DNA from: Bacillus sp. X1(2014)
GTDB taxonomy: Bacteria; Bacillota; Bacilli; Bacillales_B; DSM-18226
Direction: 5' to 3'
NCBI RefSeq assembly: GCF_007678255.1
Contig: NZ_VEED01000034.1
Location: 1-29,499 of the forward strand
DNA length: 29,499 nucleotides
The notes under the pieces are model-generated. The model saw only the letters and a list, made by a program, of their open reading frames with translations, did not search any database and was not told where the DNA came from. The position numbers and the translations under genes are program-made. This document shows, in pieces, positions 6,685 through 29,410 of the stretch (its first letter is position 1; each line of letters begins with the position of its first letter).

Positions 6685-6743
6685 TAGCTGCGGCGATTTT
6701 TTTTGCTTGTTGTACTAACGTGGCAGGTTAGTGGTATAAGAAG
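6685..6743 (+). repeat. Intergenic repeat copy
   Basis: AGCTGCGGCGATTTTTTTT (a half-decayed central terminator) is followed by the module ACTAACGTGGCAGGTTAG and TGGTATAAGAAGG. The next gene starts 63 nt later. Confidence 0.75.
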
Positions 6744-6806
6744 GTCTTTATAAAGTGAATGTAGAATAGATATGTAGATCAGTTTAAATGGAACGGAGAA
6801 GGAAAA

Positions 6807-7064
6807 ATGAAAGAATTGTTAGGTATTTTTATTATAGTACAAGCTATACTCACTGGACTCATCCTTTATGGTCTGAATACCATTTCAGATTCGATAATAA
6901 TGGCGGCTGCACATCAAAAGAACCCAATCAATACCCTTGCTTGGGGCGGGGGGTTGAACACCAGCACTTACATTTTACTGGGGGTAATAGTAATAGTAGG
7001 AGCTTATCTAATTGTCGTAAAAGATAAAAAGGTCAATGAAATTGCACCAAAGCTAAGTTTGTGA
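6807..7064 (+). CDS. Small two-helix membrane protein
   Basis: 85 residues, not recognised. Two hydrophobic segments at about residues 2-25 and 53-71, joined by a polar loop (AAAHQKNPINTLAWGGGLNTS), and a charged tail KDKKVNEIAPK. GGAGAAGG before the ATG supports the start. The stop codon TGA is part of TTGTGA, the first conserved box of the repeat copy at 7056, so gene end and repeat overlap. Confidence 0.7.
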   Translation: MKELLGIFIIVQAILTGLILYGLNTISDSIIMAAAHQKNPINTLAWGGGLNTSTYILLGVIVIVGAYLIVVKDKKVNEIAPKLSL

Positions 7065-7164
7065 ACAAATGTACTTAAACTAACGGGGGCAAGAGTTGAA
7101 GAAAGGGATTGCTGCGGCGATCCTTTTTTGGTTATTCAGCTAACGAGGCAGGATAGTAAATAAC
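7056..7164 (+). repeat. Intergenic repeat, near-complete copy
   Basis: This copy shows the full plan: TTGTGA, then GTACTTAAAC, first module CTAACGGGGGCAAGAG plus TTGAAGAAAGG, central terminator GGATTGC-TGCG-GCGATCC with a run of six T (7107-7128), and second module GCTAACGAGGCAGGATAG. It is a good reference for the family. Confidence 0.88.
7107..7128 (+). terminator. Central terminator of the repeat copy
   Basis: GGATTGC, loop TGCG, GCGATCC (7 bp with one U-G pair), then TTTTTT. A canonical rho-independent terminator 43 nt after the stop of the preceding gene. Confidence 0.85.
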
Positions 7165-7171
7165 AATTTCC

Positions 7172-7438
7172 TTATAGATTAAAAAAATCTAAAATGAAAA
7201 TTAAAGCGAACATAAAAGATGCTATAAAATATAAAATAAAATTAGCTTTTTTTTCCTTTAATAAATAATTCTCAATTCCAATTAGCAGTAAGAGTAAAGA
7301 TAGAAATAGATCACCATATGAACGATTGTTGTTTATGAAAAACAGCGAAAAATATCCAAAAATTAAAACAAGCTGTAAATAAAAAAGGGGTTTTATCCTT
7401 TTCTGCTTTTTTTCGAAAAATTTATTTAAAAGACCCAT
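7172..7438 (-). CDS. Small membrane protein, unknown
   Basis: 88 residues with a basic N-terminus (LLNKFFEKKQKRIK) and about three hydrophobic segments at residues 17-34, 44-59 and 66-86. Its composition and layout resemble small Bacillus membrane proteins of the YczI/DUF3953 kind, but I cannot assign it. It is convergent to the gene at 6807-7064 and divergent from 7622-8278. A weak AGGATT ribosome-like site precedes the ATG. It is AT-rich and unbroken, which favours a real gene; moderate confidence. Confidence 0.55.
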   Translation of the reverse strand: MGLLNKFFEKKQKRIKPLFYLQLVLIFGYFSLFFINNNRSYGDLFLSLLLLLIGIENYLLKEKKANFILYFIASFMFALIFILDFFNL

Positions 7439-7517
7439 TGCAAATCAATCCTATCTTAAAGTGTTAATGTAATTATACTTAATTAAGGGCACTTTACGAT
7501 AGCACCATTATTTAGAA

Positions 7518-7575
7518 GTACCCCTTTTAAATAAGATTGTGAGAGATTACACTTAAACTAAAGGGTGCGTTTCTA
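7518..7575 (+). repeat. Intergenic repeat, left part only
   Basis: GTACCCCTTTTAAATAAG, then TTGTGA, CACTTAAAC and TAAAGGGTGCG. The same extended left part occurs at 17064-17113. No central terminator or second module follows; the next gene starts 47 nt later. Confidence 0.7.
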
Positions 7576-7621
7576 AAAAATTTTATATACGACTTTTGTT
7601 AATAAATCGGTTGGAGGAAAA

Positions 7622-8278
7622 ATGATTAGAAATCTATATTCATTTTTAAATCAGAATTTTGAGGGGCTAATTTTAACCCCTCCTCTATTTTATTCTTGGA
7701 ATAATAGCATTAGGTTCGAAATTTCAAATCCTATAAGTCCACACTACTCAAAAGAAAATTTGCAACAAACCTTTCAACGGTCCATTACTTTGTTTAAAAA
7801 GGTGTTTGATGATAGGGATGAAATTCTGCTGGTTACCGATGTGCTTACTACAAGAAACAATCACTTTCTCCAGAGGAAACCTTTAAATGTTTATAAGAAG
7901 TATTTAAAAGATAAAAATCTATTATACAAATTACACCATCAACTTTTAGGTAGATTCTTCGAAGATGAAGCGGATGAGATGGTTATTCATCGATTTCTCC
8001 TCCAGTGCAAAAAGAACACTATTAGGTATGTCCCACTATTAAAAGCAATTTGTTATGAGGACTATGCTCATTCGTCTACTATCTTAAAAAGTAATCAAGA
8101 AAGTGGATATGAAATTTATTTTGTTAATCTAACTAAAAAAATAATTTTCCACTTATATGATGATCGTGGATGTGATATTTTAGCAGCAGATAAAGAGGAT
8201 ATTCGTTATCTTTATGAGGAATTTAACGATTGGATTTTAGATTATGATCGCAAAAGAATTGATCACTTGTTTAAGTAG
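7622..8278 (+). CDS. DUF3885 domain protein
   Basis: 218 residues, soluble, resembling the DUF3885 family found in many Firmicutes. Recognisable features are LILTPPLFYSWNNSIRFEI near residue 20, EILLVTDVL at about 67-75, RKPLNVYKKYLKDK at about 85-98, RYVPLLKAICYEDY at about 135-148, IYFVNLTKKIIFHLYDDRGCDILA at about 164-187 and the C-terminal DWILDYDRKRIDHLF. The function of the family is not established, and no toxin partner is adjacent. TTGGAGG at 7611-7617 supports the ATG. It is a single-gene unit bracketed by repeat copies at 7518 and 8301. Confidence 0.8.
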   Translation: MIRNLYSFLNQNFEGLILTPPLFYSWNNSIRFEISNPISPHYSKENLQQTFQRSITLFKKVFDDRDEILLVTDVLTTRNNHFLQRKPLNVYKKYLKDKNLLYKLHHQLLGRFFEDEADEMVIHRFLLQCKKNTIRYVPLLKAICYEDYAHSSTILKSNQESGYEIYFVNLTKKIIFHLYDDRGCDILAADKEDIRYLYEEFNDWILDYDRKRIDHLFK

Positions 8279-8291
8279 AACATAACCTACA

Positions 8292-8326
8292 TCTTCAACT
8301 ACTAACGGGGCAGGTTAGTTGAAGAA
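8292..8326 (+). repeat. Intergenic repeat, single palindromic module
   Basis: TCTTCAACTA precedes the perfect module CTAACGGGGCAGGTTAG and TTGAAGA, so the module tail appears inverted on the left and direct on the right. It forms a long imperfect hairpin 13 nt after the stop at 8278. Confidence 0.8.
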
Positions 8327-8356
8327 TAGCACGCATTTGAACTATATTATGGCATA

Positions 8357-8388
8357 AAAAATCCCCTCAAGTTTTTCTTGAAAGGAAT
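8357..8388 (-). terminator. Terminator of small minus-strand gene
   Basis: On the minus strand CCTTTCAAG, loop AAAAA, CTTGAGGGG is followed by ATTTTTTATG. The stem has mismatches but ends in a T-run just after the stop of the gene at 8388-8525. Confidence 0.6.
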
Positions 8389-8525
8389 CACGTTTGTTTT
8401 GCGTTTTCAAGTTTTGATTTAATTTGGTTATTTTGAGATATTATGACACTGCTAAAAATTATTGTTGCTACAAAGCCTAAAAGTGAAAAAAAGACAAAAA
8501 CAGCCAAATTGGTATTATCACGCAT
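8388..8525 (-). CDS. Small single-pass membrane protein
   Basis: 45 residues with one membrane helix (about residues 7-30, LAVFVFFSLLGFVATIIFSSVII) and a short polar tail. AAGGGAGG lies 7 nt before the ATG at 8525 on the minus strand, so the longer frame to 8573 is not used. Family not recognised. It is the only gene between two repeat loci and runs against their orientation. Confidence 0.65.
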   Translation of the reverse strand: MRDNTNLAVFVFFSLLGFVATIIFSSVIISQNNQIKSKLENAKQT

Positions 8526-8625
8526 AACAGAACCTCCCTTTAGTAATAAGTATAGTTTGTATAAAAAAACCATTTACTATTCGTAATTGCATACTTCGAG
8601 GAAAATGTGCAATAGAACAAAAGGA

Positions 8626-8862
8626 CTTGTTCAACTACCATGAAAATAAGTTTCTTCAAGATTAGAAAATGACAATACTTAAGAAGACCCTACTCAAACG
8701 TTAAAAAAAAGAGGAGAGCGATAATAATAAGTCTATGAATTAGGGTTGACTGGATTAAGGTCAGTATCAGTATTGACACTTCCTAACCATTTTCATTCTC
8801 TGTGGTGAAGCACTGATTTTGTGCTGCATGGAAGGCTAACGGGGCAGTTTAGTTCAACAAGC
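8626..8862 (+). repeat. Intergenic repeat, long inverted-end form
   Basis: The left end CTTGTTCAACTACCATG (8626-8642) is roughly the inverse of the right end CTAACGGGGCAGTTTAG and TTCAACAAG (8836-8862). Before the right module are CTGTGGTG, the hairpin AGCAC-TGATTTT-GTGCT, GCATGG and AAGG, the same order as at 1661-1757. The interior (8643-8798) has no evident gene. The next gene starts 69 nt downstream. Confidence 0.7.
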
Positions 8863-8930
8863 ATTGAAACAATATTGGTTGGGGAAACGTATAAGAGAGA
8901 TGAAATTTAAGATAGGTAGAGGTTAATGGA

Positions 8931-9167
8931 ATGGGAAAAGACTTTTATGCTGGTATTTTCAGCTTTATGGTTGGAGTTCTTGCAATTTATATGTTCTTCC
9001 ATGCCACAAGGGAACGTTTCTTGAACAATAAAACGTATGAACATATCAGGTATATAACCCCGTTACCTGTCTCTTTTAATTTCTGGTTCATTAAAATTTT
9101 GTTTATGGTCGGGGGACTTTTATGTTTGGCTGTCGGGGTATACGGAATCATTGAACCATTTCTTTAA
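8931..9167 (+). CDS. Small two-helix membrane protein
   Basis: 78 residues, unknown. Hydrophobic segments at about residues 6-24 (AGIFSFMVGVLAIYMFFHA) and 51-77 (FWFIKILFMVGGLLCLAVGVYGII) flank a polar loop ATRERFLNNKTYEHIRYITP. AGAGG about 10 nt before the ATG is a plausible ribosome site. It sits alone between the repeat at 8626-8862 and the repeat cluster that holds the group II intron. Confidence 0.68.
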   Translation: MGKDFYAGIFSFMVGVLAIYMFFHATRERFLNNKTYEHIRYITPLPVSFNFWFIKILFMVGGLLCLAVGVYGIIEPFL

Positions 9168-9180
9168 TCTAGTTGTTCTT

Positions 9181-9211
9181 GAATTAACTGGGGCGATTCT
9201 TCAATAAGTGG
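9181..9211 (+). repeat. Intergenic repeat module, degenerate
   Basis: GAATTAACTGGGGCGATTC followed by TTCAATAAGTGG, a decayed module 14 nt after the stop at 9167 and first of three tandem modules here. Confidence 0.6.
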
Positions 9212-9223
9212 TGACGTTTTTTT

Positions 9224-9237
9224 ACTAACGGGTGCTT
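9224..9237 (+). repeat. Intergenic repeat module, 5' half (intron 5' exon)
   Basis: ACTAACGGGTGCTT is the left half of a module cut by the group II intron; the right half, TACTTCAATAAGG, is at 11180-11192. The rejoined module closely resembles 17432-17460 (GGGGCTTTACTTGAAGAA), which fixes both intron ends. The last six bases are the presumed IBS1 and ACTAACG the presumed IBS2. Confidence 0.85.
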
Positions 9238-9746
9238 GTGCGGCCGAGCATAGGTCGTATCATATAGCGGGTGGGATTCCCGTCGAGTAAGAACTAGCCA
9301 TTCGCTCGTAGCGAGTCTTGGAGGGCTAAAGGTAACTTTAGTCTTTAAGCGTAGACAGTTAGGTAGCGGGCCGAAAGCCAAATGGTTGAAGGGATTGAGC
9401 TCCAAAATGTTAGTAAATCGAGAGGGCTGATGCCTTAAGCACAGCAGAAAGCTACATTTTATCTTTCGTTAGGGCAAGAAGGGTAAAACCTCTCTGGAGT
9501 CAGAGACCTTGGCACGTTATACATTGATATGATACGGCAACTCGGGAGACCCTACCGGTCTTTTCTTTTTTTTAGAAGAGTATGGTGTACAAGCGATAAC
9601 AAGCAAGGAAACCAAATGCCGATGTAGGGAGTCGGATAGCAGCGTAGTACCAATGAAGTTGGGTAATGCCGACGGAGGAAAGGCTAGCTACCAGTTATCA
9701 CCCTTACTAGGGACACATTTACTACACACAGAGGTAGGGATAATAA

Positions 9747-11075
9747 ATGGAAACAAAACTACTAAGGATAGCAGAATTAGCAAAATCAAATCCTAAAATG
9801 AAATTTACATCTCTTGCACATTTATTAAATGAGCAAGCACTATTTCAATGTCACCAGGAGCTACCTAACAAGAAGGCAACTGGGGTTAATGGTACAACTA
9901 AAGAGCAATACAGTGAAAATCTAAAAGAAAACATAGAGAATTTAGTAAATAGGCTTAAAAGCAAAAGTTATCGACCTGTTCCAGTAAGGAGAATGTATAT
10001 TCCAAAGCTCAATTCAAACAAGAAAAGACCATTGGGAATTCCGGAACATGAAGATAAGATTGTTCAAAGAGGCATTACGAAAATACTAAATACCATCTAT
10101 GAAAATGATTTTCTAGACTGTTCATTTGGATTCCGTCCAAATCGTAACTGCCACGATGCTTTGAAAATACTAAACCACTATATTGAAAAGAGAACAGTAA
10201 ATTATGTAGTAGATGTAGATATTAAAGGATTCTTTGACAACGTTGACCACACATGGATGATGGGTTTTTTAAAACTGCGACTAGCTGACCCTAACCTACT
10301 AAGAATCATTGGTAGATTCCTTAAAGGTGGATACATGGAAGAAGGTAAGAAATATAAAACAGACAAAGGCACACCGCAAGGTGGAGTAATATCTCCGATA
10401 TTAACCAATGTATACCTCCATTTTGTCCTTGATCTTTGGTTTGAGAAAAGGGTTAGTAAACAGTGCAAGGGACAAGCATACATAGTGAGATACGCAGACG
10501 ATTTTGTTTGTTGTTTTCAATATAAATGTGAAGCCGAGCAATTCTTCCATTCATTAAAGTTGAGATTAAAGAAATTTAATCTAGAAATAGCTGAGGATAA
10601 AACCAAAATCATACCCTTCGGGCGGTTTGCGGAGCAAAATGCAAATCAACAGGGTAGAAGTAAACCGGCAACTTTTGATTTCCTTGGATTTACACACTAT
10701 TGCGGTAGGAGTAAACAAGGGAAATTTCGAGTAAAACGGAGAACAAGCAGGAAGAAAGTCCAAGCTAAACTAAAAGAAACTAAAGAATGGTTGAAAATTA
10801 ACAGAAATAAAGACATTCATATGATTATGGATAGATTTAAACGCTCACTAGTAGGTTATTACAACTACTATTGCATCACAGATAATACCCAAAGTGTAAA
10901 CAAATTCAGAGACAAAATCGGGTACTTACTGTTTAAATGGCTCAATAGAAGAAGTCAAAGGAAATCATTTACTTGGGATAAATTCAGACTCTTTCTTAAT
11001 AAATATCCATTACCTTACGCAAGAGTTAAGGTTAATATATACAACTTAAGAAAAGAAATTAGCTATATTTTGTAA
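9747..11075 (+). CDS. ltrA: Group II intron reverse transcriptase/maturase
   Basis: 442-residue intron-encoded protein that binds and helps splice its own intron RNA and copies it into DNA during homing. Reverse transcriptase motifs: LGIPEHEDKIVQRGI (residues 96-110), FGFRPNRNCHDAL (128-139), VVDVDIKGFFDNVDH (154-168), KGTPQGGVISP (207-217) and the catalytic RYADDF (248-253), followed by FLGFTHYCG. Domain X (maturase) covers about residues 340-420 and includes VGYYNYYCITDN. The chain ends soon after a short basic region and no HNH endonuclease domain is present, so it probably primes on nascent DNA at replication forks or at hairpin-rich targets. AGAGGTAGGG upstream is the ribosome-like site. 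Length is normal for endonuclease-less members. Confidence 0.95.
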   Translation: METKLLRIAELAKSNPKMKFTSLAHLLNEQALFQCHQELPNKKATGVNGTTKEQYSENLKENIENLVNRLKSKSYRPVPVRRMYIPKLNSNKKRPLGIPEHEDKIVQRGITKILNTIYENDFLDCSFGFRPNRNCHDALKILNHYIEKRTVNYVVDVDIKGFFDNVDHTWMMGFLKLRLADPNLLRIIGRFLKGGYMEEGKKYKTDKGTPQGGVISPILTNVYLHFVLDLWFEKRVSKQCKGQAYIVRYADDFVCCFQYKCEAEQFFHSLKLRLKKFNLEIAEDKTKIIPFGRFAEQNANQQGRSKPATFDFLGFTHYCGRSKQGKFRVKRRTSRKKVQAKLKETKEWLKINRNKDIHMIMDRFKRSLVGYYNYYCITDNTQSVNKFRDKIGYLLFKWLNRRSQRKSFTWDKFRLFLNKYPLPYARVKVNIYNLRKEISYIL

Positions 11076-11089
11076 ATGATGACTAGGAG

Positions 11090-11122
11090 GAGCCGTGTGC
11101 GTTAATAGCGCAAGCACGGTTC
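11090..11122 (+). ncRNA. Group II intron domain V (catalytic hairpin)
   Basis: GAGCCGTGTGC pairs with GCAAGCACGGTTC across GTTAATAGC, and contains the AGC catalytic triad. It follows the maturase stop by 14 nt and is the most conserved intron piece. Confidence 0.85.
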
Positions 11123-11179
11123 TGTGAGGGGGGAGGAGTACAATTTACCGCAAGGTTGAAAGGCTCCCTTCTACTCGAC

Positions 11180-11241
11180 TACTTCAATAAGGAGTAAGGC
11201 TTATTTCTTTTAAACTAAAGAGGCAGTAAAGTTGAAGAAGG
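11180..11241 (+). repeat. Intergenic repeat: 3' half module plus another module
   Basis: TACTTCAATAAGG (intron 3' exon) is followed by an AATAAG-CTTATT hairpin with TCTTTT, then the module AAACTAAAGAGGCAGTAAAG and TTGAAGAAGG at 11212-11241. With the upstream modules this is a three-module cluster. Confidence 0.75.
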
Positions 11242-11329
11242 ATTCTTCATTATTGAGAGTGAATATAATTATTATTGGGTTATTAGATCGTTTTTATGGT
11301 TAATAAAAAAGTAGTATCTTGGAGGTAAT

Positions 11330-12043
11330 ATGGCACTTATAAAAAATATTGAATTATTCTTTCCAGAGGATAGAGAGGCTAATTTAGTCTTTTATAAAGA
11401 AACAAGATGCATCGCTGCTTTGTACAGTCATCTGCTTCCCATATTAAATATAGATGAAAACAATGGAATACTTATTAACTGTGTATCGGACTTTGACTAT
11501 ATCAACAATTTAGACTCTGATTTATTTATTACGTTTAATTATAAATCCGTTTTTACAAAGATTAATATGGAGGAGTTTCTGTCCTTGCCTTCTGACCAGA
11601 GGAAAAAAGAATATACTCTGGAAATTATTCAAAAGCCTTTAGAACAGTTAGCGTTAGAACTAAATTTGGACTTAAGCATTTTTAAAAATATCTATCAAAA
11701 AATAAAAAACCTGAATTTCGAAAATAAGTGGGTTTATGCGAAAAAGAGCAGCCCTAATAGAAAATATACGTGTAATATTTTATGTGAACAAGAAGTATCT
11801 CATATAGATGTGTATATAGAAATCAAAAAAAAGAATGGCAAAATCATAGGGAGAAATAGAATTATGAAAGAAGTCGATACCTATGAACAGCATCTGTTTA
11901 ACAAATTAGGGAGCATAGAGTGGACACACAACCACAAAGTTACATTCGCTGACCGAGATTATAAAACAAAATTTATCGTTACTTTCTTAGAAAAGGACGC
12001 TCCAGATAAATTATTTTGGAAATATGAACTTTTAACAAACTAA
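11330..12043 (+). CDS. Hypothetical protein, 237 aa
   Basis: Not recognised. A soluble, charged protein without signal peptide or membrane segment. Visible blocks are an N-terminal IELFFPEDREANLVFYKETRCIAALYSHL, a central acidic stretch ISDFDYINNLDSDLF-like (VSDFDYINNLDSDL), a helical part at about 100-135 (EQLALELNLDLSIFKNIYQKIKNL) and a lysine-rich C-terminal half with alternating strands (HIDVYIEIKKKNGKIIG, KVTFADRDYKTKFIVTFL). TTGGAGG 7 nt before the ATG supports the start. A single-gene unit between repeat loci at 11180-11241 and 12074-12161. Confidence 0.7.
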   Translation: MALIKNIELFFPEDREANLVFYKETRCIAALYSHLLPILNIDENNGILINCVSDFDYINNLDSDLFITFNYKSVFTKINMEEFLSLPSDQRKKEYTLEIIQKPLEQLALELNLDLSIFKNIYQKIKNLNFENKWVYAKKSSPNRKYTCNILCEQEVSHIDVYIEIKKKNGKIIGRNRIMKEVDTYEQHLFNKLGSIEWTHNHKVTFADRDYKTKFIVTFLEKDAPDKLFWKYELLTN

Positions 12044-12073
12044 TTTTAATCAAGTATCAAATAAAGTTAAACA

Positions 12074-12161
12074 AGGATTGTGAAAAAATACACTTAAACT
12101 AACGGGTGCGTTAGTTTAATAAGTAAGTAAGAAAACCATCTTATCTAAGGTGGTTTTTTAC
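12074..12161 (+). repeat. Intergenic repeat with perfect module hairpin and terminator
   Basis: GGATTGTGAAAAAATACAC and TTAA lead into ACTAACGGGTGCGTTAGT, a perfect 6-bp hairpin with loop GGGTGC, then TTAATAAG. A strong terminator follows at 12132-12161. Confidence 0.85.
12132..12161 (+). terminator. Rho-independent terminator in repeat
   Basis: AAAACCATCTT, loop ATCT, AAGGTGGTTTT (11 bp, one T-G), then TT. It ends the unit with the gene at 11330-12043. Confidence 0.88.
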
Positions 12162-12310
12162 TTTGTGTTTATTTAATTTGAAGGATTAAAACAAATAGGT
12201 AATTTAAGATCGGTATCAATAGCCAGCCTATTTTAGTTTATTTATTTCGACATTTTTCTGCATTCTAAGAAGGGTAACAAAATACATAAGATCTTAGAAT
12301 TATAAAAAGA
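12162..12310. other. AT-rich spacer, nothing recognised
   Basis: No ribosome site with an open frame, and no clear hairpin or promoter. Together with 12311-12553 it forms the longest plain gap in the window after the repeat loci. Confidence 0.4.
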
Positions 12311-12464
12311 TTGTTGATTTTATTGACTTTGCCAGTCCTTACAGTTGTTTGTGTGTATATTAATTTTTGTTAAGTTAAGAATTTGTCAAATCTTGACCTT
12401 TTTTTTAGCTTTAATAACTTTCGTATTATTTGTAAAATATAAAAAAGTCAAAAAACACTTGTAG
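12311..12464 (+). pseudogene. Possible remnant of a small membrane protein
   Basis: Two hydrophobic stretches occur in different frames. TTGTTGATTTTATTGACTTTG onward reads LLILLTLPVLTVVCVYINFC and stops. From 12393 another frame reads LTFFLALITFVLFVKYKKVKKHL and stops at 12464. Joined, they would make a plausible two-helix protein with a basic tail, like other small genes here. There is no ribosome site or good start. Chance hydrophobic frames in AT-rich DNA are an alternative. Confidence 0.25.
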
Positions 12465-12553
12465 GAATAACTAAATGAAATTGGATTTATTTAGTGAAGT
12501 GGAATGAATAAAAAGTTAGAATTATTAGAATTATAAAAAGGAGATAGAGCAAA

Positions 12554-12688
12554 ATGTACAAGTATACAATCTATGTAACACATAAGGGTAAAGTTTATCA
12601 AACCAACGTAATAGCTACCAAAAACCAAACAGAAGAAGAAGTTTATCGTATAGCAAAAGAACAAGTACTTAAACAATGGGAAAATTAA
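12554..12688 (+). CDS. Small protein, resembles BA3454-type stress family
   Basis: 44 residues: a beta-strand-like N-terminal half (YKYTIYVTHKGKVYQTNVIA) and a helical half rich in Glu and Gln (EEEVYRIAKEQVLKQWEN). The pattern resembles the short BA3454-family proteins of Bacillus, described as stress-related; the match is from memory and the function is not known to me. AAAGGAG at 12537-12543 with 10 nt spacing gives a strong start. No own terminator is evident before the next small gene at 12854, so the two may be cotranscribed. Confidence 0.62.
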   Translation: MYKYTIYVTHKGKVYQTNVIATKNQTEEEVYRIAKEQVLKQWEN

Positions 12689-12853
12689 ATAAGGGATCCT
12701 GAGATTAAAAGGATTTCGAATGGAACTTCCACTTGAAAAATAGATTTTGGATAGCTTCCTTTACTTGGATATCCCGCTGCCAATAGCGGCTTTAGAAATT
12801 TTATGAAGAATACTAATTATATATAAATTATAATAAGAGGAGTTGGTAGGTTT

Positions 12854-13012
12854 ATGAAGAATACTAATAACCTTACTATAGAGGAGCTGGAAAGACGTAT
12901 TACTCATTTTGAGGATCGTCTTACGGATTTTATTATTACCGATGAACAAAGAGAGTTAATCAAAGAAAGCTTAAGGGAACTAAAGAACGCTAAAGAGCGC
13001 AAGGCTTCCTAA
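12854..13012 (+). CDS. Small helical protein, unknown
   Basis: 52 residues, probably almost entirely alpha-helical and amphipathic: LTIEELERRITHFEDRLTDF, then TDEQRELIKESLRELKNAKERK. GAGGAG at 12837-12842 precedes the ATG. The 18-nt start region TTTATGAAGAATACTAAT also occurs at 12801-12818, where it opens a frame of only a few codons. That is a short local duplication and perhaps an old start. Function unknown; a regulatory or adaptor peptide would fit its size. Confidence 0.6.
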   Translation: MKNTNNLTIEELERRITHFEDRLTDFIITDEQRELIKESLRELKNAKERKAS

Positions 13013-13126
13013 ACTTTCTAAATAAAATAATAAATATAAATTAAAGAGTCTTATCTGTGAAACATATATAGATTTTTATTAATTTTTCCATCATCTGGAT
13101 AGAAAAAGGTATAAAGTTCTTATTAT

Positions 13127-13211
13127 GCTAACGGGTGCTTATGTTAAATAAAAAGTCGCAGCAGCGACTTTTTTTCATGTTCCACTAAAGCATCCGGATA
13201 GTTGAAGAAAC
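13127..13211 (+). repeat. Intergenic repeat, complete copy
   Basis: First module GCTAACGGGTGCTT, then ATGTTAAATAA; central terminator AAAGTCGC-AGCA-GCGACTTT with a T-run (13152-13175); second module ACTAAAGCATCCGGATAG and TTGAAGAAA. The first 14 bases differ at one position from the exon sequence next to the group II intron. Confidence 0.85.
13152..13175 (+). terminator. Central terminator of repeat copy
   Basis: AAAGTCGC, loop AGCA, GCGACTTT, then TTTT: perfect 8-bp stem whose sequence is unlike that at 7107 although the flanking modules match. Confidence 0.88.
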
Positions 13212-13262
13212 GCTTGGTTTCATATGGTAAAGCGATTCCTTTAAAGACGCAGAAAGAACAGA

Positions 13263-13320
13263 AGCAAGAGTTTTAAATCCAAGCTGTCATATCGGCAGCT
13301 TTTCTTATTGATCTAATGGG
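13263..13320 (+). repeat. Intergenic repeat, decayed copy
   Basis: GCAAGAGTTTTAAATCC, the hairpin AAGCTG-CAGCTT with TTC, then CTTATTGATCTAATGG. It aligns with the better copy at 18551-18610. Confidence 0.5.
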
Positions 13321-13388
13321 AAGTATGGACACTCTAATCGAATAATTTGATATGATTATCTCAAATAGTTTATTTGGAGGAAATACCT

Positions 13389-13883: not shown

Positions 13884-13898
13884 CGGGGGTGAATGGTT
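13877..13898 (+). repeat. Intergenic repeat, single module at a stop codon
   Basis: AAACTAACGGGGGTGAATGGTT; the core provides the stop codon of the preceding gene. No terminator follows; the next gene is convergent. Confidence 0.7.
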
Positions 13899-13984
13899 AC
13901 AAGCGTTTGGCGATCATGACGAGGATATACAGTAGCCAAATAGTCTAGAGACTCAATCAACTTCATTAGTAAAAGATATAAAAA

Positions 13985-17063: not shown

Positions 17064-17150
17064 GTACCCCTTGTAAATAAGTCTGTGAAAAAATGTACTT
17101 AAACTAACGGGTGAAATAGATAAAGATTGAGATAGCTGGAGCAGGTTAGG
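17064..17150 (+). repeat. Intergenic repeat, extended left form
   Basis: GTACCCCTTGTAAATAAG, then TGTGAAAAAATGTAC, TTAAACTAACGGGTGAA and, without a clear terminator, GGAGCAGGTTAGGGG. It shares about 45 bp with 7518-7565. Confidence 0.75.
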
Positions 17151-17406: not shown

Positions 17407-17431
17407 AGAATAAAAAAATGTTTTTTTATTG

Positions 17432-17490
17432 AACTAACAGGGGCTTTACTTGAAGAAACTGAATTTCCGGACCTAAATGTGGTCTTTTTT
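17432..17490 (+). repeat. Intergenic repeat with terminator
   Basis: AACTAACAGGGGCTTTAC and TTGAAGAAACTG, then GGACC-TAAATGT-GGTC with a seven-T run (17469-17490). Its centre GGGGCTTTACTTGAAGAA is the best guide to the intact form of the module split by the intron at 9237/11180. Confidence 0.75.
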
Positions 17491-18521: not shown

Positions 18522-18628
18522 AGATTGTGAAGAACTACACTTAAACAAACGGGTGCAAGGGTTGAAGATCCAAGCTGCCAACGTGGGCGGCTTTTCTTGT
18601 GCTAACAGAGCAGGTTACTTCAATAAGC
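18522..18628 (+). repeat. Intergenic repeat, complete copy
   Basis: ATTGTGAAGAACTACAC, TTAAACAAACGGGTGCAAGG and GTTGAAGATCC; terminator AAGCTGCC-AACGTG-GGCGGCTTTT (18572-18594); then GCTAACAGAGCAGGTTAC and TTCAATAAG. All parts of the family plan are present. Confidence 0.85.
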
Positions 18629-20123: not shown

Positions 20124-20200
20124 TTTGTGAAAAGATGTATTTAAACAAACGGGTGGGTTAGGTGAATAAGAGGAGGACCGTCAAGAGACGGCCTTTTTAT
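20124..20200 (+). repeat. Intergenic repeat with terminator
   Basis: TTTGTGAAAAGATGTAT and TTAAACAAACGGGTGGGTTAG, then GTGAATAAG and GGACCGTC-AAGA-GACGGCC with TTTTT (20174-20197). Confidence 0.85.
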
Positions 20201-20269
20201 TTACTTTTATTGTTCCCTCTATTGTGCATTTCCACTGAATAACTAGCTAATTTAATATGCTTGTGTTGA

Positions 20270-21000: not shown

Positions 21001-21146
21001 CTTTGAATGAATTATTGCTATCTTTCTGAAATTTGGTTTGATTGTGAAGAAACAGCTTTTCATATTATGAAAAAGGGCTGGTTAGTGTAACATCACATAA
21101 TGAAGTATGATAGTGAAAATATACGTTTTTAAAAAAGAAGATTAAA

Positions 21147-21965: not shown

Positions 21966-21993
21966 CCTTCCCCTTACAGGAGGGTCTATATTT
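21964..21993 (+). terminator. Hairpin at MerR stop codon
   Basis: GACCTTCC, loop CCTTACA, GGAGGGTC (8 bp, one T-G), then TATATTTTT. It overlaps the TGA and may attenuate readthrough into the YdfK-like gene. Confidence 0.6.
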
Positions 21994-22027
21994 TTGGTTA
22001 AGAAAAGTATATAAAAGGAGAATGATT

Positions 22028-22711
22028 ATGTTTGGAACAATATTTAATACATTGATGATAATCATCGGGAGCACTGTTGGAAGCATCTTTAAAAAGGGGA
22101 TAAGAGATGAATATCATACTATTCTAATGCAGGCTATGGGATTAGTTGCTCTGGGATTAGGAATCAATGGACTGGTACAACATTTACCTTCCAGCAAATA
22201 TCCAGTACTTTTTATTGTAAGTTTAGCAGTAGGGGGATTACTCGGTCAAAGACTTAATTTGGAATCCAAATTTAATGCTTTTGTTAATAAATATTCTAAG
22301 GGTAATTTAGCAGAAGGGTTATCTACCGCAATTCTTTTATTTTGTATTGGAACGATATCTATATTAGGCCCTGTAGAGGCTGCGTTAAAGGGAGATTATA
22401 CGTATCTGCTTGCAAATGGGATGTTGGATGGAATTACTTCAATTGTACTAGCATCCACATTTGGCATTGGTATAGCTGTAGCAGGCATTGTTTTATTTGT
22501 ATGGCAGGGTTCCATTTATTTAATTGCTCTTTTAATGGAGAACTCCATCAATAATGATCTTCTAAATGAAATGACTATTGTAGGAGGTATATTGATAGTC
22601 GCATCTGGTTTAAGTGTTTTGGGCATTAAGAAATGTAATACCTTAAATCTTTTGCCATCATTAATGATTCCTCCTATTGTATTTTTGATCATTAATTTAT
22701 TCCACTTATAA
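22028..22711 (+). CDS. DUF554 membrane protein, YdfK/YqgA-like
   Basis: 227-residue integral membrane protein of the DUF554 family. Typical start GTIFNTLMIIIGSTVGSIFKKG, conserved AMGLVALGLGINGL at about 35-48, SLAVGGLLGQRLNLE at about 62-76, and GNLAEGLSTAILLFCIGTISILGPVEAALKGDYTYLLANGMLDGI at about 90-135; six to seven hydrophobic segments. Its biochemical function is unknown. AAAGGAG at 22014-22020 favours the ATG at 22028 over the upstream starts (21959, 22022). It probably shares transcription with the MerR gene in part; whether MerR controls it is unproven. Confidence 0.88.
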   Translation: MFGTIFNTLMIIIGSTVGSIFKKGIRDEYHTILMQAMGLVALGLGINGLVQHLPSSKYPVLFIVSLAVGGLLGQRLNLESKFNAFVNKYSKGNLAEGLSTAILLFCIGTISILGPVEAALKGDYTYLLANGMLDGITSIVLASTFGIGIAVAGIVLFVWQGSIYLIALLMENSINNDLLNEMTIVGGILIVASGLSVLGIKKCNTLNLLPSLMIPPIVFLIINLFHL

Positions 22712-22740
22712 TATTTGGGATGAGCAAATCCATACATCGA

Positions 22741-25375: not shown

Positions 25376-25483
25376 ATGTCCATTACAATAAGAAGAAAAA
25401 TTTTAGCTGCCATAATTAGTAGTTCATTAGGAGTTAATTTGTTTATTCAATTTACGGACAGGTTGGTTCAAGAAGGATTTTAA
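25376..25483 (+). CDS. Possible 35-aa membrane peptide
   Basis: MSITIRRKILAAIISSSLGV is followed by NLFIQFTDRLVQEGF. Three positive residues precede a hydrophobic helix of about 17 residues. AAAGGAAGAGG 4-5 nt upstream of the ATG is a strong ribosome site. The last eleven codons are made of the repeat module at 25451-25476, so either the gene has captured the repeat as its end or it is an older gene cut by it. No homologue known. Confidence 0.4.
   Translation: MSITIRRKILAAIISSSLGVNLFIQFTDRLVQEGF
25451..25476 (+). repeat. Intergenic repeat, single module
   Basis: TTTACGGACAGGTTGG and TTCAAGAAGG. A degenerate module, 59 nt before the next gene. Confidence 0.6.
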
Positions 25484-25535
25484 ATCCCCTTGGAGAATTT
25501 TTAGATTATCCTATTTAAAGAGAAGTGATTTATAG

Positions 25536-25979
25536 ATGAAATATCAGCAAATGGATTTCACTGAAGAACTAAAGATAAAGATAAAAAATACTGAATCGTC
25601 ATTAAAAAAACATGTCGAAAAATTGTTAAATGAGAATAAATCTGTTTTTCTTAAGAAGAACTTACAATTTGATGCTGATTTTAATAAAGATGGCGATGAC
25701 CCTTTTAAGCCTGGGTATAGTTCCTCAGTTGCAATAAGTATTTCTGATAAAACTGACAAAAATGGCGAACTTATAGACTTACATATTATTAAAATATGGG
25801 AATGTGAACGCATCCTCTTAGGTATGCCAATTTCAAAACACATACTAGGAAGCAAGATTATTGGTGAACTACTTGATGAAACATTAGAAGAAATTAAAGA
25901 TGAATTAAAGGAATATATTGAGGAATTATTAGAGGATGCAAATCAGAGTTCTTCAACAACAAACGGGGGCAAGAGCTGA
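25536..25979 (+). CDS. Hypothetical protein, 147 aa
   Basis: Not recognised. The N-terminal part (about 1-45) is a charged helix (EELKIKIKNTESSLKKHVEKLLNENK), the middle has strands (SSSVAISISDKTDKNGELID, LHIIKIWECER) and the end is a highly acidic helix (GELLDETLEEIKDELKEYIEELLEDANQ). The last residues SSSTTNGGKS are encoded by the repeat: AACAAACGGGGGCAAGAGCTGA contributes the tail and the TGA stop. AGAGAAG upstream is a modest ribosome site. The repeat-derived tail suggests the original stop was lost when the repeat arrived. Confidence 0.68.
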   Translation: MKYQQMDFTEELKIKIKNTESSLKKHVEKLLNENKSVFLKKNLQFDADFNKDGDDPFKPGYSSSVAISISDKTDKNGELIDLHIIKIWECERILLGMPISKHILGSKIIGELLDETLEEIKDELKEYIEELLEDANQSSSTTNGGKS

Positions 25980-26047
25980 AGATTAAGATCGTGCTGCGGT
26001 CTTTTCTTTTTCAACTAATGTGGCAGGTTAGCGGAATAATAGGAAGG
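25957..26047 (+). repeat. Intergenic repeat, complete copy
   Basis: ACAACAAACGGGGGCAAGAG and CTGAAGATTAAG; terminator GATCG-TGCTG-CGGTC with TTTTC (25987-26010); then AACTAATGTGGCAGGTTAG and CGGAATAATAGG. The left part codes for the end of the preceding protein. Confidence 0.85.
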
Positions 26048-26096
26048 TAATCTATATCACTTTATCTAGTTATTTCGAAGGAAGGAGAAATAATCA

Positions 26097-26288: not shown

Positions 26289-26354
26289 AATAGAAGAACT
26301 GTCTTTAACTTATCGGGATCGATACTTCTATAAAGTAGGATAACTTTTTCTTAT

Positions 26355-26380
26355 TGAAGTAACGGAGCATGTTTAATAAG
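26355..26380 (+). repeat. Intergenic repeat, single module
   Basis: TGAAGTAACGGAGCATG and TTTAATAAG. A degenerate module 58 nt before the next gene; a TATAAT box (26406-26411) lies in between. Confidence 0.6.
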
Positions 26381-26438: not shown

Positions 26439-27059
26439 ATGCATCAAATACAGAAAAAGTCTGATACTTTAATCATTGTAATACATGAAATTTATGGAAT
26501 TAACCAACATATGCTGAGTTTTTGTGATTTATTATCGAAACAGAATTTTAATGTCATTTGTCCAAATTTATTAGAACGAGAGATACCTTTTGATTATACA
26601 CAAGAGGAAGATGCTTATCGTAATTTTATGGTCAACGTGGGATTCGCTTATGCTTTGCATAAAATAAAAAATATTTTATCAGATGTTAAAGATGAATACG
26701 AAAAAATATTTATTATTGGATTTAGTGTAGGGGCGACTATTGCATGGTTATGTAGTGACCAGGACTGTGTCGATGGAATAGTCGGATACTATGGTTCCCG
26801 TATTAGGAATTACATGGAATTAACACCACAATGTCCTACAATACTATTCTTTCCGCAAGAAGAACAATCATTTAATGTGGATGAGTTAATTTTAGATTTA
26901 GAAAAAATGAATATCGAAATTCATAAATTTAACGGAAAACACGGATTCAGTGACCCATACTCTTCAGAATATAATGAAAAATTAGCACAAAAAGCATTTA
27001 GTGAAATGATGAAATTTTTTAAGAACCATTATTTAATCAACTGTTGTGTTATTAGCTAA
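26439..27059 (+). CDS. Dienelactone hydrolase-like alpha/beta hydrolase
   Basis: 206-residue alpha/beta hydrolase. The order of motifs fits the dienelactone hydrolase family: IVIHEIYGIN at residues 13-22 with the Glu of the nucleophile network, the nucleophile elbow GFSVGA at 94-99 and the catalytic His in GKHGFSDP at 166-173. The nucleophile is Ser96, not the Cys of classical dienelactone hydrolases. The catalytic Asp is expected near 140-145, where FFPQEEQSF has only Glu. CAAGGAGG before the ATG is strong. Its TAA stop belongs to GCTAACGGGTGC of the repeat at 27054, and the last residues (NCCVIS) are unlike the family's usual end. Confidence 0.82.
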   Translation: MHQIQKKSDTLIIVIHEIYGINQHMLSFCDLLSKQNFNVICPNLLEREIPFDYTQEEDAYRNFMVNVGFAYALHKIKNILSDVKDEYEKIFIIGFSVGATIAWLCSDQDCVDGIVGYYGSRIRNYMELTPQCPTILFFPQEEQSFNVDELILDLEKMNIEIHKFNGKHGFSDPYSSEYNEKLAQKAFSEMMKFFKNHYLINCCVIS

Positions 27060-27123
27060 CGGGTGCATTCCTTTAATAAGGAATGTTTTCTTATTCAACA
27101 AACGAGCTGTATAGTTGTATAAG
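27054..27123 (+). repeat. Intergenic repeat with fused terminator
   Basis: AGCTAACGGGTGCATTCC; here the module tail itself forms the terminator CATTCCTT-TAAT-AAGGAATG with TTTTC (27066-27090). A second degenerate module, AACAAACGAGCTGTATAG and TTGTATAAG, follows. Confidence 0.75.
27066..27090 (+). terminator. Terminator built from the module tail
   Basis: CATTCCTT, loop TAAT, AAGGAATG, then TTTTCTT: perfect 8-bp stem 7 nt after the stop of the hydrolase gene. Confidence 0.82.
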
Positions 27124-27236
27124 CTATATAAGGAAGCAATAGTTTTCATTTTACTTAAAAACTATGCATTCTTATAAAAATTAACAACGACATGAATGTA
27201 GGCTATTTTTCATACATTAATTTGGGAGGTGATGAA

Positions 27237-27680
27237 ATGGCAAGAGTCAGGGCTAGAAGTCATGAAGTAGATGAAATGGCAAGAATGATGAGAGCAGAAG
27301 CAGAGGGCGAAGGACAGCAAGGAATGTTATATGTTGGAAATGTAATAATAAATCGTGTTGTAGCAGAATGCTTAGATTTTAAAAGTGTAAACAATATTCA
27401 TGATGTAATATTTCAAGTACAAGGAGGAAATTATTCTTTTGAAGCAGTGCAAAAAGGGAATGTATTTTATCAAAGATCAAGAACTTCTGAAAGAAGATTA
27501 GCACAACAAAATATTAATTCTTGGAGAGATCATCCTGCGAAATATGCACTTTGGTATTTTAATCCAACGGCGCCAGCGTGTCCTCCTACATGGTACGGTC
27601 AACCTCATTCTGGTCAATTTAAAGAACATTGTTTTTATGAACCAAAACCTGGAACATGTGATAGTGTTTATAGGGGTTAG
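27237..27680 (+). CDS. cwlJ: Spore cortex-lytic enzyme CwlJ
   Basis: 147-residue cell-wall hydrolase of the SleB/CwlJ family, which breaks down spore cortex peptidoglycan during germination. It follows B. subtilis CwlJ closely as I recall it: VRARSHEVDEMARMMRAEAEGEGQQGM (presumed catalytic Glu21), GNVIINRVV, FYQRSRTSERRLAQQNIN, AKYALWYFNP and the C-terminal QFKEHCFYEPKPGTCDSVY. GGGAGGTGAT at 27224-27233 marks the ATG at 27237; the frame extends upstream without support. There is no signal peptide, as in CwlJ, which is placed in the coat by other proteins. The partner gerQ, adjacent in B. subtilis, is not here. It may be a stand-alone paralogue like the second cwlJ of the B. cereus group. Confidence 0.93.
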   Translation: MARVRARSHEVDEMARMMRAEAEGEGQQGMLYVGNVIINRVVAECLDFKSVNNIHDVIFQVQGGNYSFEAVQKGNVFYQRSRTSERRLAQQNINSWRDHPAKYALWYFNPTAPACPPTWYGQPHSGQFKEHCFYEPKPGTCDSVYRG

Positions 27681-27689
27681 GCTTATTTT

Positions 27690-27714
27690 TTAATGAGGCA
27701 GGTTAGTGAAAGCA
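27690..27714 (+). repeat. Intergenic repeat, half module
   Basis: TTAATGAGGCAGGTTAG and TGAAAGCAC, 10 nt after the cwlJ stop. Confidence 0.5.
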
Positions 27715-27830: not shown

Positions 27831-27905
27831 TCTTATTCAACCAGGAGTTGCATCGGCAGCTCTTTTTTTTATTATTGAGCTAACGTACAGGTAATTTGAA
27901 CAAGG
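27831..27905 (+). repeat. Intergenic repeat with terminator
   Basis: TCTTATTCAACCAGG; terminator AGTTGC-ATCG-GCAGCT with a nine-T run (27846-27870); then TGAGCTAACGTACAGGTAA and TTTGAACAAGG. Confidence 0.75.
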
Positions 27906-27962: not shown

Positions 27963-28160
27963 TTGCGTAAGAAGGTTTTGTTATTAAAAATTTTTGGTTT
28001 AGCTTTTTTTCTTGTCCCAATCTTCATTACCAGATTTAAAATGGTTCCCAATATATCTTGGAGAATTTTTTATTTTACTTCTGGAATAGCTCTTCTTTTT
28101 CTTTTGGTAACAGACATTTTAGAGTGGAAAATATCAAAAAGAAAAGCGAATAAGGGGTAA
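27963..28160 (+). CDS. Small two-helix membrane protein
   Basis: 65 residues from a TTG start; GGGGGAG lies 6 nt upstream. Hydrophobic segments at about residues 4-22 (KVLLLKIFGLAFFLVPIFI) and 32-50 (SWRIFYFTSGIALLFLLVTDI), then a basic tail KISKRKANKG. Family not recognised. A single-gene unit between repeats at 27831 and 28192. Confidence 0.62.
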   Translation: MRKKVLLLKIFGLAFFLVPIFITRFKMVPNISWRIFYFTSGIALLFLLVTDILEWKISKRKANKG

Positions 28161-28191
28161 AAATTAACTCGTTCCATTGTGTATTGATTTT

Positions 28192-28240
28192 GAACTAATA
28201 GGTAAATGAGTTGAAGATTGGGATTGCAGCGGGGGACCAA
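28192..28240 (+). repeat. Intergenic repeat, decayed copy
   Basis: GAACTAATAGGTAAATGAG and TTGAAGATTGG, then GGATTGCAGCGGGGGACC, a terminator-like part whose pairing and T-run have been lost. Confidence 0.55.
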
Positions 28241-28392
28241 CAAATTGGGAAAAACAACAATCTCCTGTATCACCGTAAGAAACTTAAAACAAACTATTGC
28301 TTGTTTAACTATAGAGCAGTTTGTTTAGGAAGGATAGCTAAGAAAAATGGCGAATTTATACAGTATATAAGTAACACTTGGAGGTTTAATCA

Positions 28393-28836
28393 TTGGGAAA
28401 ACGTTTTGAAATTATTTATGACCTAGAAATCCTACAAGGCACTTGTTACGTTGAAATAAAACCAGGTAAATACTCAGGGGATAATTGGAACAAGGGTTCA
28501 ATATTCTTTACAGATGAAACCTTTACCTACTTTTCAAAGGCAATTGAGAAACATTTTAAAAATTATTCTCTATGGGGTGTAAGTGAGATAAACAGGGACA
28601 CTTGGAAGTTAATTCTAGATGAACTTGAAAATCTCAAGAAATTTTTAATAAACGATCCTAAACCTAAAGAATTGAAGAATCATATTGAATTTCTATATTT
28701 AAAAATTACAGAGAAATATGTTTTAGAAAACCTAAATAATAATTTGAAATATTTGGTTAAAGTTATCACTGATTTTCAATCTTGGATAGCTGAGAAGAGT
28801 AAAAATAACGAGTACATCTCTATTTTAGGTGTATAA
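28393..28836 (+). CDS. Hypothetical protein, 147 aa
   Basis: Not recognised. Soluble; an N-terminal beta-rich part (RFEIIYDLEILQGTCYVEIKPGKYSG, GSIFFTDETFTYF) followed by helices (YFSKAIEKHFKNY, WKLILDELENLKKFL, YLVKVITDFQSWIAEKS). The start is TTG with TTGGAGG 10 nt upstream. Size and layout recall small immunity-like proteins, but no partner toxin is seen and this remains a guess. A single-gene unit bracketed by repeats. Confidence 0.65.
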   Translation: MGKRFEIIYDLEILQGTCYVEIKPGKYSGDNWNKGSIFFTDETFTYFSKAIEKHFKNYSLWGVSEINRDTWKLILDELENLKKFLINDPKPKELKNHIEFLYLKITEKYVLENLNNNLKYLVKVITDFQSWIAEKSKNNEYISILGV

Positions 28837-28880
28837 CCATTAATGCCTAAATTAAGGATTTGCTCAATGTGATTGACAAA

Positions 28881-28988
28881 AGTTTGTGAAAGTTCCTACT
28901 TAAACTAACGGGTGCTTATGTTTAACAAAGGGTTGCGGTGGCAGCTCTTTTTTCTTGTTCCACTAACGGGGCATATAGTTGAACAAGG
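28881..28988 (+). repeat. Intergenic repeat, complete copy
   Basis: AGTTTGTGAAAGTTCCTAC and TTAAACTAACGGGTGCTT; terminator GGGTTGC-GGTG-GCAGCTC with TTTTTT (28930-28953); then CACTAACGGGGCATATAG and TTGAACAAGG. Positions 28904-28917 match the group II intron's 5' exon at all 14 bases but are unoccupied. Confidence 0.88.
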
Positions 28989-29129
28989 ATTATAAAAAGT
29001 CTGTGTTGAAATATATACAGTAAAGATAGGTATTTTGGGTCAATTATTGAATATACAATTAATATATTTTTATATAAATTAAACAGAAAAAGGGATGTTA
29101 TTTTCCTTCTTATCGGAGGTAGAAAATAT

Positions 29130-29192
29130 TTGAGAGATTTTATTATCTTTGTTATCTTACCAATTCTAATATTCATCACTTTTTATTATTAA
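29130..29192 (+). CDS. Possible 20-aa membrane micropeptide
   Basis: A TTG start 9 nt after a perfect GGAGGT opens MRDFIIFVILPILIFITFYY, then TAA. It is a single hydrophobic helix with a charged N-terminus. Such peptides can be small membrane regulators or type I toxin-like, but chance is possible in AT-rich DNA. The good ribosome site and position after a repeat copy favour a real gene modestly. Confidence 0.4.
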   Translation: MRDFIIFVILPILIFITFYY

Positions 29193-29329
29193 TTAATTTC
29201 TTTTGGTCTTTTGAGGGGGCGGCTCCGTTAACCTTTTCTGCGGTAACGAATTTATTTGAATTTTGATAATTAATTTATTGCTAGGAGTATAACCGCTTAC
29301 CTAAGTCTGATAAATAGTCATTCCTTATG
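29193..29329. other. Spacer with weak inverted repeat
   Basis: CGTTAACC and GGTAACG (29227-29250) form a small imperfect hairpin. No gene found. Confidence 0.35.
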
Positions 29330-29410
29330 CAACTATCGGGTGCAAGAGTGGAATAACGGGGATTGCTGCGACGATCCTTTTTGTTATTGAGCTAAACCAG
29401 CTAATAGTTT
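29330..29410 (+). repeat. Intergenic repeat, complete copy
   Basis: CAACTATCGGGTGCAAGAG and TGGAATAACGG; terminator GGATTG-CTGCGA-CGATCC with TTTTT (29360-29382); then GAGCTAAACCAGCTAATAG. The central stem nearly repeats that at 7107. Confidence 0.8.

Follow-up and report, generated by a model that had tools for sequence, protein, structure and literature searches.

The window examined in this study, that is, the whole stretch of 29,499 nucleotides (nt) of DNA from Bacillus sp. X1(2014) (assembly GCF_007678255.1, contig NZ_VEED01000034.1), is very probably a stretch of an integron-like cassette array, in which units are swapped at short boxes of a dispersed repeat and a Xer-like tyrosine recombinase likely performs the exchange. 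In our best reading the system works like an integron and stands outside the IntI integrons. We do not file it under the latter because its recombinase scores below the cut-off of the integron integrase family and the fold of the integron site attC is not supported by our data.

A full copy of the repeat, which we call the site, consists of box 1, then a short hairpin with a run of T, and then box 2; copies with a single box are frequent. Both boxes are nearly palindromic: arms of the type CTTRTTSAACTAAC and GTTAGTTSAAYAAG lie around a centre of 7 nt, which is GGGTGCT in box 1 and GGGGCAG in box 2. The sequence of box 1 is CTAAC GGGTGCT TTAGTTSAA and that of box 2 is TTSAACTAAC GGGGCAG GTTAGTTSAA; the right arm of a box has the sequence TTGAAGAAGG. 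The two boxes have the same direction and enclose the hairpin between them. Several hundred sites show covariation in the stem of the hairpin, with z 7.1 and 6.2 at two pairs and z 3.6 and 2.9 at another two. The hairpin is terminator-like, and such covariation is what would be expected of a terminator. The motif TGTGAA-N(3-8)-ACTTAAAC stands ahead of box 1 in 69 of 592 sites of the joined stretches, compared to 2.25 expected at random places; in the window it is found at 7054, 12073, 17078, 18520 and 28879.

The original prediction, made from the sequence of the window, described one intergenic module at about 25 places, always on the plus strand, in a layout resembling a cassette array. When the window was scanned with a profile built from the 48 non-window rows of alignment A1, which come from other replicons, 20 sites were obtained at E<0.05, and all 20 were on the plus strand. 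No site was obtained in any of 10 dinucleotide-shuffled windows, which were scanned with a version of the profile including 5 window rows. Besides, CTAACGGGGCAGGTTAG occurs 7 times in the window at up to 3 mismatches, always on the plus strand (0.02 expected), and TTGAAGAAGG 16 times on both strands at up to 1 mismatch (3.8 expected). The module and its orientation were thus borne out, but the module is not a single unit, since it has two boxes around a hairpin and many copies have one box. Of the predicted places, those at 13.9, 24.5, 25.5, 27.7 and 28.2 kb fell below the threshold; the places at 25.5 and 27.7 kb read as degenerate boxes, and the former is also the edge of a unit common to another genome. 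The places at 9.2 and 11.2 kb, counted as two, belong to a single site that a group II intron interrupts. At Rfam gathering scores this intron was the sole match in the window, and no described repeat family was found.

We compared syntenic stretches of two strains, 482-672 kb of genome G001 and 1.56-1.80 Mb of G063, whose long blocks are 97.0-99.9% identical. There were 22 ends of homology other than simple gaps. In 14 of them a site was at most 30 bp away in one strain or both, and in 13 this held for both strains; the share of the G001 stretch at a distance of up to 60 bp from a site is 7.7%, giving a binomial p of 9e-10 for the 13. The two chromosomes differ in single units as well as in blocks of them: the blocks of units at 495.4-501.5 kb (G001) and 1596.8-1616.1 kb (G063) differ, and one unit of 412 bp has been relocated, being found in a different part of the array region in the other strain. 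Among the 689 units of all the arrays fetched, there were 107 similar pairs, of which 36 differ in both neighbours, 9 share both, and 4 share one and differ in the other; in 58 pairs a neighbour defied judgement.

These pairs allowed us to map the edges of the shared units. At the upstream side we used 60 pairs with different upstream neighbours, of which 27-46 were usable at each variable column of the site alignment and 21 at the last. The identity of the upstream sites stayed near the chance level through column 84 (column 69, 0.31 vs 0.34; column 79, 0.52 vs 0.52; column 84, 0.55 vs 0.49), with small excesses at columns 62, 66, 70 and 80. From column 85 it was above chance wherever the columns are variable (column 85, 0.90 vs 0.81; column 88, 0.93 vs 0.68; column 91, 0.58 vs 0.32), as it was at later columns (column 94, 0.68 vs 0.37; column 98, 0.86 vs 0.37). 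The left edge of the shared units is therefore located between columns 84 and 85, at GCAGG^TTAG, which is a 5'-G^TT crossover position. In attC sites the crossover follows the rule G^TTRRRY.

At the downstream side there were 51 pairs, of which 45 were scored and 6 were unscored. Twelve pairs retain the hairpin. In these, the sequence before the centre of box 2 is shared (column 63, 0.75 vs 0.30; column 69, 0.75 vs 0.47), and the identity is lost past the centre (column 84, 0.45 vs 0.47; column 91, 0.20 vs 0.35). In 33 pairs the hairpin is changed or missing. Among these 33, the 13-18 pairs with box 1 share its left arm (column 9, 0.78 vs 0.37; column 20, 0.83 vs 0.61) and differ beyond it (column 27, 0.35 vs 0.50; column 36, 0.16 vs 0.31); the pairs outside this group are single-boxed. 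That is, the right edge is either in box 2 with the terminator kept or in box 1 with the terminator exchanged. As right edges occur at either box, exchange takes place at both of them, and separately for the terminator piece, which, judged by these comparisons, behaves as a module of its own.

One might think that the sites are dispersed terminator repeats which are shuffled by ordinary homologous recombination of the RecA type. The middle of the site is indeed a covarying hairpin with a T run, repeats of about 90 nt in hundreds of copies are able to recombine, and some homology ends lie away from sites. However, the edges are limited to two narrow places and do not spread over the site. Two further observations described below, namely the constant orientation of the sites and the fixed place of an attI-like box and a recombinase gene whose clade co-occurs with the sites, also disagree with this explanation, and we consider it very unlikely.

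The sites are strongly oriented. In 1.54 Mb of array stretches, selected for their site matches, 856 of 858 sites share the orientation of their own stretch. The median spacing between sites is 715 bp, and 69% of the spacings are within 250-1500 bp. In 523 units of 200-1500 bp (G063 was left out of this count), the longest open reading frame (ORF) of at least 60 aa runs with the site in 401 and against it in 52, and 70 units have none. These arrays are thus one-directional cassette arrays, and the orientation of the site stays constant despite a reversed gene in 52 of the 453 units with an ORF, which is not what shuffling of terminator repeats by RecA would predict. In the closed chromosome of G063, with dnaA at base 22 and the half-way point taken as the terminus, 144 of the 150 listed sites (of 151) are co-directional with replication, which answers the question of replichore orientation raised by the original prediction. 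It is reported that sedentary integrons are preferentially oriented towards replication (PMC11023631).

Sites are not confined to the window. A search of 72,556 plasmid records with the site consensus at a lax E of 1 gave 276 places in 83 records, and in 13 records a place covered 80% of the query. The 83 records belong to Staphylococcus (19), Peribacillus (13), Cytobacillus (7), Priestia (6) and others; none of the Staphylococcus matches is among the 40 best rows, and the two richest records have 28 and 27 places. A strict two-box pattern was found at 7 loci of the genome collection, in Paenisporosarcina sp. HGH0030, Paenisporosarcina sp. OV554 and Paenibacillus sp. BSR1-1. With model R1 at E 0.01, these three genomes have at least 150, at least 150 and at least 149 sites (150 candidates were scored in each), and plasmids of Peribacillus simplex, P. 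frigoritolerans and Mesobacillus foraminis have 40, 69 and 85. In family-wide runs in which about 20 candidates were scored per genome, a site at 1e-6 was present in 98 of 200 genomes of the G001 family and in 175 of 193 of the G003 family.

As the original prediction had remarked, no integrase is visible in the window, and tblastn detected no relative of the recombinase encoded there. The candidate is located in related arrays instead. It is a Xer-like tyrosine recombinase of 279 aa, to which we were led when three genomes and three plasmids were scanned with Pfam for enzymes of this type. G001 has two copies (99.6-100% to each other's query), G002 has relatives of 96-97% identity, G003 has broken pieces of 69-73%, and the plasmid pSHB26 has a relative of 62%. 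In 34 relatives, R137, H227, H253 and Y262 are invariant and R230 is nearly so; we take these to be the catalytic residues. A protein search at 1e-20 gave 2508 relatives, and the 120 matches listed have 77-97% identity; the organisms named among them belong to Bacillales genera, except one metagenome assembly labelled Chondromyces. The AlphaFold2 model of the recombinase has a mean pLDDT of 67.8, with the C-terminal part below 50. The tyrosine recombinases first found by the plasmid arrays (P0001-P0004) belong to different families and were dropped as the common enzyme.

The protein scores 207.6 bits with the XerD profile and 200.9 bits with the XerC profile, both under their own cut-offs. Against TIGR02249, the integron integrase model, it scores 95.9 bits where the cut-off is 265, so it does not belong to the IntI family by this measure. 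With NF040815, named "site-specific tyrosine recombinase/integron integrase", the G001 protein is barely over the cut-off of 220 (224.2) and the pSHB26 protein is under it (201.1). In a phmmer search the protein aligned nearly over its full length to XerC-like, XerD and XerA structures, and to IntI4 at residues 185-266 only.

We then examined the surroundings of the recombinase gene. Relatives of at least 70% identity were called clade A and those of 62-68% clade B; in the tree, the branch of clade B has support 100/98 and the fork of clade A 85/89. For clade A, 24 loci, each from a different genome, were read (10 and 6 from the best of two match lists, 3 from genomes with few sites, and 5 others). 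In all 23 clade A loci with sites, the recombinase gene runs against the majority of the sites, on the opposite strand. In 17 of the 24 loci the profile (E<0.02 in one run, E<0.05 in the other) detected a lone box 2 at 58-112 bp upstream of the start codon, which is the place of an attI; we call it the attI-like box. By eye it was seen in 3 more loci, being degenerate in L026 and L028 and cut by a group II intron in L034, and it is absent in L098, L100, L101 and L102. In 10 aligned loci, the stretch from the start codon to the core of the box is conserved and the sequence beyond the core is divergent, as would be the pattern of an attI with different first cassettes. Directly 3' of the recombinase gene there is a box 1 with a hairpin in 8 of these 10 loci.

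Co-occurrence was tested in the G001 family, as sites are nearly universal in the G003 family. Among the matches listed, 36 of the 200 genomes carry clade A (short A fragments may be missed in this count), and 34 of the 36 have at least 6 sites; the exceptions are G078 with 2 sites and G094 with none listed. At least 6 sites were found in 3 of 22 genomes with clade B only and in 17 of 142 with neither clade. The Fisher p value is 5e-22 for clade A against the rest and 0.73 for clade B against neither. The sister clade B was therefore rejected as the partner of the sites: it does not co-occur with them, and the attI-like box is absent in all 4 clade B loci read (L103-L106, from G041, G064, G153 and G196).

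Several observations weigh against our reading, and they should be stated together. Eight of the 22 homology ends lie away from sites, the unit pairs are partly non-independent, and the array stretches were selected for their site matches. G271 carries clade A twice and yet has no site at E<=1e-6, G284 and G289 have 3 sites and 1 site despite clade A, and the loci of these three genomes are without an attI-like box. The pSHB26 relative (L023:9526-10365), which forms a long branch of its own, is on the same strand as the sites. The arms of the boxes lack consistent covariation, as described below. Catalysis would be assigned to the recombinase by association, and the excision and insertion of cassettes would be known from comparative traces alone. 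Finally, 20 of the 164 genomes without a listed clade A gene have at least 6 sites. Such arrays could also be taken to mean that the system is site-specific but that another tyrosine recombinase acts in it, either XerC/XerD of the host or an enzyme of the plasmid's own, with clade A as a mere passenger cassette; plasmids W01-W03 have 5-7 tyrosine recombinase matches each. Against this, at loci of two families clade A goes together with the sites and keeps a constant position by the attI-like box, and the three recombinases first found by the plasmid arrays are of different families. We regard this possibility as very improbable, and clade A as the better candidate.

We also examined whether the site folds as attC does. 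The consensus arms are complementary, with attC-like R and L boxes (CTAAC/GTTAG), and a canonical attC fold was our initial reading; it was dropped when the covariation vanished in a larger set of sites. In the first set, covariation seemed to exist between arms at opposite ends of one cassette (z 2.1 and 2.6). In the larger set these values went down to 1.0 and 1.6, with 0.3 and -0.5 for the next-but-one control. Within the same site of the larger set, neither the R''/R' pairs (z 1.2, -0.2 and -1.4) nor the L''/L' pairs (z -0.6 to 1.8) covaried, all being of |z|<2. An attC-type fold on one strand, R'' with R' and L'' with L', is thus not supported by covariation. RNAalifold predicted zero pairs on the sites, and model R1 is therefore a sequence-only model. 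Pairs between the arms of box 2 were prominent (columns 68-92, z 5.5; columns 70-90, z 2.6), but the 92-68 pair was equally prominent between neighbouring sites (z 7.3), so that we favour lineage make-up over pairing as its cause. The complementary consensus arms may still fold physically.

These data bear on the possibility that a canonical integron, with IntI and a folding attC, has been overlooked in this clade. The attC-like R and L boxes, the crossover at G^TT, and the opposed recombinase gene with its attI-like box would all agree with it. The TIGR02249 score, the phmmer alignment restricted to a part of IntI4, and the missing covariation of R''/R' and L''/L' do not, and we find this explanation hardly credible.

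Taken together, the evidence supports a recombination platform among the options of regulatory element, mobile element and recombination platform which the original prediction had entertained, and its cassette-like layout agrees with the comparative data: units were gained, lost and relocated at the boxes, so gene order between strains is not fixed. We infer that the clade A recombinase moves the cassettes. The recombinase would bind the boxes and release cassettes, probably as circles, and the released cassettes would be inserted preferentially at the attI-like box. The window would be a part of an array without a recombinase of its own.

The boxes are also targets of inserted elements. In the fetched loci, all 8 group II intron 5' ends of the window type (GTGCGGCC) are at the identical position of a box. 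This box is a box 1 in six cases, a box 2 in one and the attI-like box in one; the cases include the window, L001, L002, L023 and L034, and the introns have the direction of the sites. Of the 14 places in the joined stretches where the junction GCAG/CATTCCTGT is present, 10 run into the same kind of element. Insertion sequence (IS) elements of the IS110 type lie directly past GGGGCAG of a box in the G063, G034, G008 and G001 stretches; 5 of 6 printed units of this type have an ORF of 425-440 aa, the sixth being masked, and the one ORF tested by Pfam was DEDD_Tnp_IS110. Both IS1111 elements targeting attC (PMC11187229) and group IIC introns in attC (PMC7923331) are known, and the fixed place of an IS110-type element and a group II intron in our boxes resembles them. 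The present elements differ in that the one IS element tested is IS110-type by Pfam, and in that the introns here are on the top strand and run with the sites, which is not usual for group IIC-attC introns (PMC7923331). A non-coding element of about 200 nt, CCATG...CATGGATGG, was also seen in a box at window 8633-8841 and in L014, L112 and L022. It is flanked by CTA on both sides (AACTA/CCATG ... GG/CTAACGGG), both ends being seen in L014, and the window sequence at 8293 (AACTACTAACGGGG) may be a footprint of its excision.

The sites and related features of the window are listed in Table 1. Relatives of three window units are found in different surroundings, and the edges coincide with boxes or lie close to them. 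Unit 25442-25970 has a relative of 78% in G130 with both ends in boxes, and 25463-25970 has one of 89% on a Priestia plasmid. Unit 27141-27681 has a relative of 80% in G001 ending at most 20 bp from the window boxes. Unit 21050-22720 (MerR and DUF554) has a relative of 88% on pSHB26, where the copy is bounded by boxes. The best plasmid matches to the window are in Peribacillus and Mesobacillus, mostly via the group II intron, and phage records gave no match to window 6600-14000. In a Pfam scan of 20 window ORFs, 6 cassette ORFs had no match, and the others were common accessory proteins and the intron reverse transcriptase. A protein with a PLD domain at 15627-16853 is weakly similar to DrmC-type defence models (1.4e-14). 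Around an oxidoreductase region, a segment of about 500 bp is directly duplicated (1892-2404 and 3555-4061, in blocks 92-98% identical).

Table 1. Sites, boxes and the group II intron in the window.
Feature	Position	Strand	Support
Site: hairpin end and box 2	6685..6741	+	profile match
Full site: box 1, hairpin with T run, box 2	7070..7160	+	profile 53.4 bits without window rows
Box 1 only	7550..7580	+	profile match
Box 2 only	8293..8327	+	profile match; exact core match
Box 2 only	8836..8862	+	profile match
5' part of site, interrupted in box 1 by group II intron	9174..9236	+	
Group II intron, 3' end approximate	9237..11180	+	Rfam RF02005, RF00029; RVT_1; 5' end at GTGCGGCC
Reverse transcriptase ORF inside group II intron	9747-11075		RVT_1
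3' part of intron-split site, with box 2	11181..11241	+	profile match
Box 1 only	12091..12126	+	profile match
Full site	13117..13209	+	profile match
Partial site	13257..13320	+	profile match
Partial site, box 1	17094..17144	+	profile match
Box 1 only	17425..17463	+	profile match
Full site	18538..18627	+	profile match
Box 1 and hairpin	20137..20201	+	profile match
Degenerate box 2, left edge of G130-shared unit	25442..25477	+	below E<0.05 threshold
Full site; box 1 contains right edge of G130-shared unit	25950..26040	+	profile match
Partial site	26305..26373	+	profile match
Both boxes, middle shortened	27052..27124	+	profile match
Degenerate box 2	27690..27714	+	core match, 3 mismatches
Hairpin and box 2	27839..27905	+	profile match
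Full site, top score in window	28895..28988	+	profile 62.3 bits without window rows
Box 1 and hairpin, box 2 degenerate	29323..29396	+	profile match

Among known systems, sedentary chromosomal integrons and clusters of attC sites lacking integrases (CALINs) resemble the present arrays closely. They share the one-directional arrays of mostly single-gene cassettes, a recombinase gene that points away from the array and adjoins an attI-like box, the G^TT crossover, the integrase-free clusters and the orientation linked to replication. The differences are also clear. Here the recombinase is Xer-like and under the IntI cut-off; two direct boxes surround a terminator, whereas there one site folds; the terminator is exchanged separately, and the arrays are spread over the chromosome and megaplasmids. 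Another known arrangement is the Xer dif module of plasmids, in which genes are flanked by short sites of Xer-type recombinases, as in the present arrays. The core of dif has the plan 11-6-11 and is bound by XerC and XerD; to our knowledge, dif modules have neither the present box sequence nor a plan of two boxes nor an attI-like platform.

In addition, the host clade has one complete integron by IntegronFinder 2.0, which found that single one in all Firmicutes searched and describes integrons as extremely rare there (PMC9024848). A review names Firmicutes among the integron-bearing phyla (PMC8618304). The usual search for IntI requires the IntI-specific domain (PMC9668308), and a system with a Xer-like enzyme would therefore be missed by it. 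We found no account of such arrays in Bacillaceae, and no described family to which the repeat belongs, in the literature searched, a search whose reach did not extend to subscription papers and preprints.

We speculate, at a level where we would be as ready to defend the idea as to give it up, that this is a second kind of integron, built on Xer in the Gram-positive Bacillales. It would have its own attI and tandem double-box sites, and its genes and terminators would be shuffled separately. The recombinase gene, with a box 1 on one side and the attI-like box on the other, would itself spread as a cassette and seed platforms and arrays over chromosomes and megaplasmids.

If our reading is right, a cassette system of its own, with many cassettes of unknown function, exists in a large group of bacteria associated with soil and plants; the at least 149 sites in each of the three searched genomes would belong to this system. 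It would also mean that integron-like capture arose from Xer in another form. The system would offer a comparison case for the origin of folding attC sites, and the modular shuffling of terminators would become testable.

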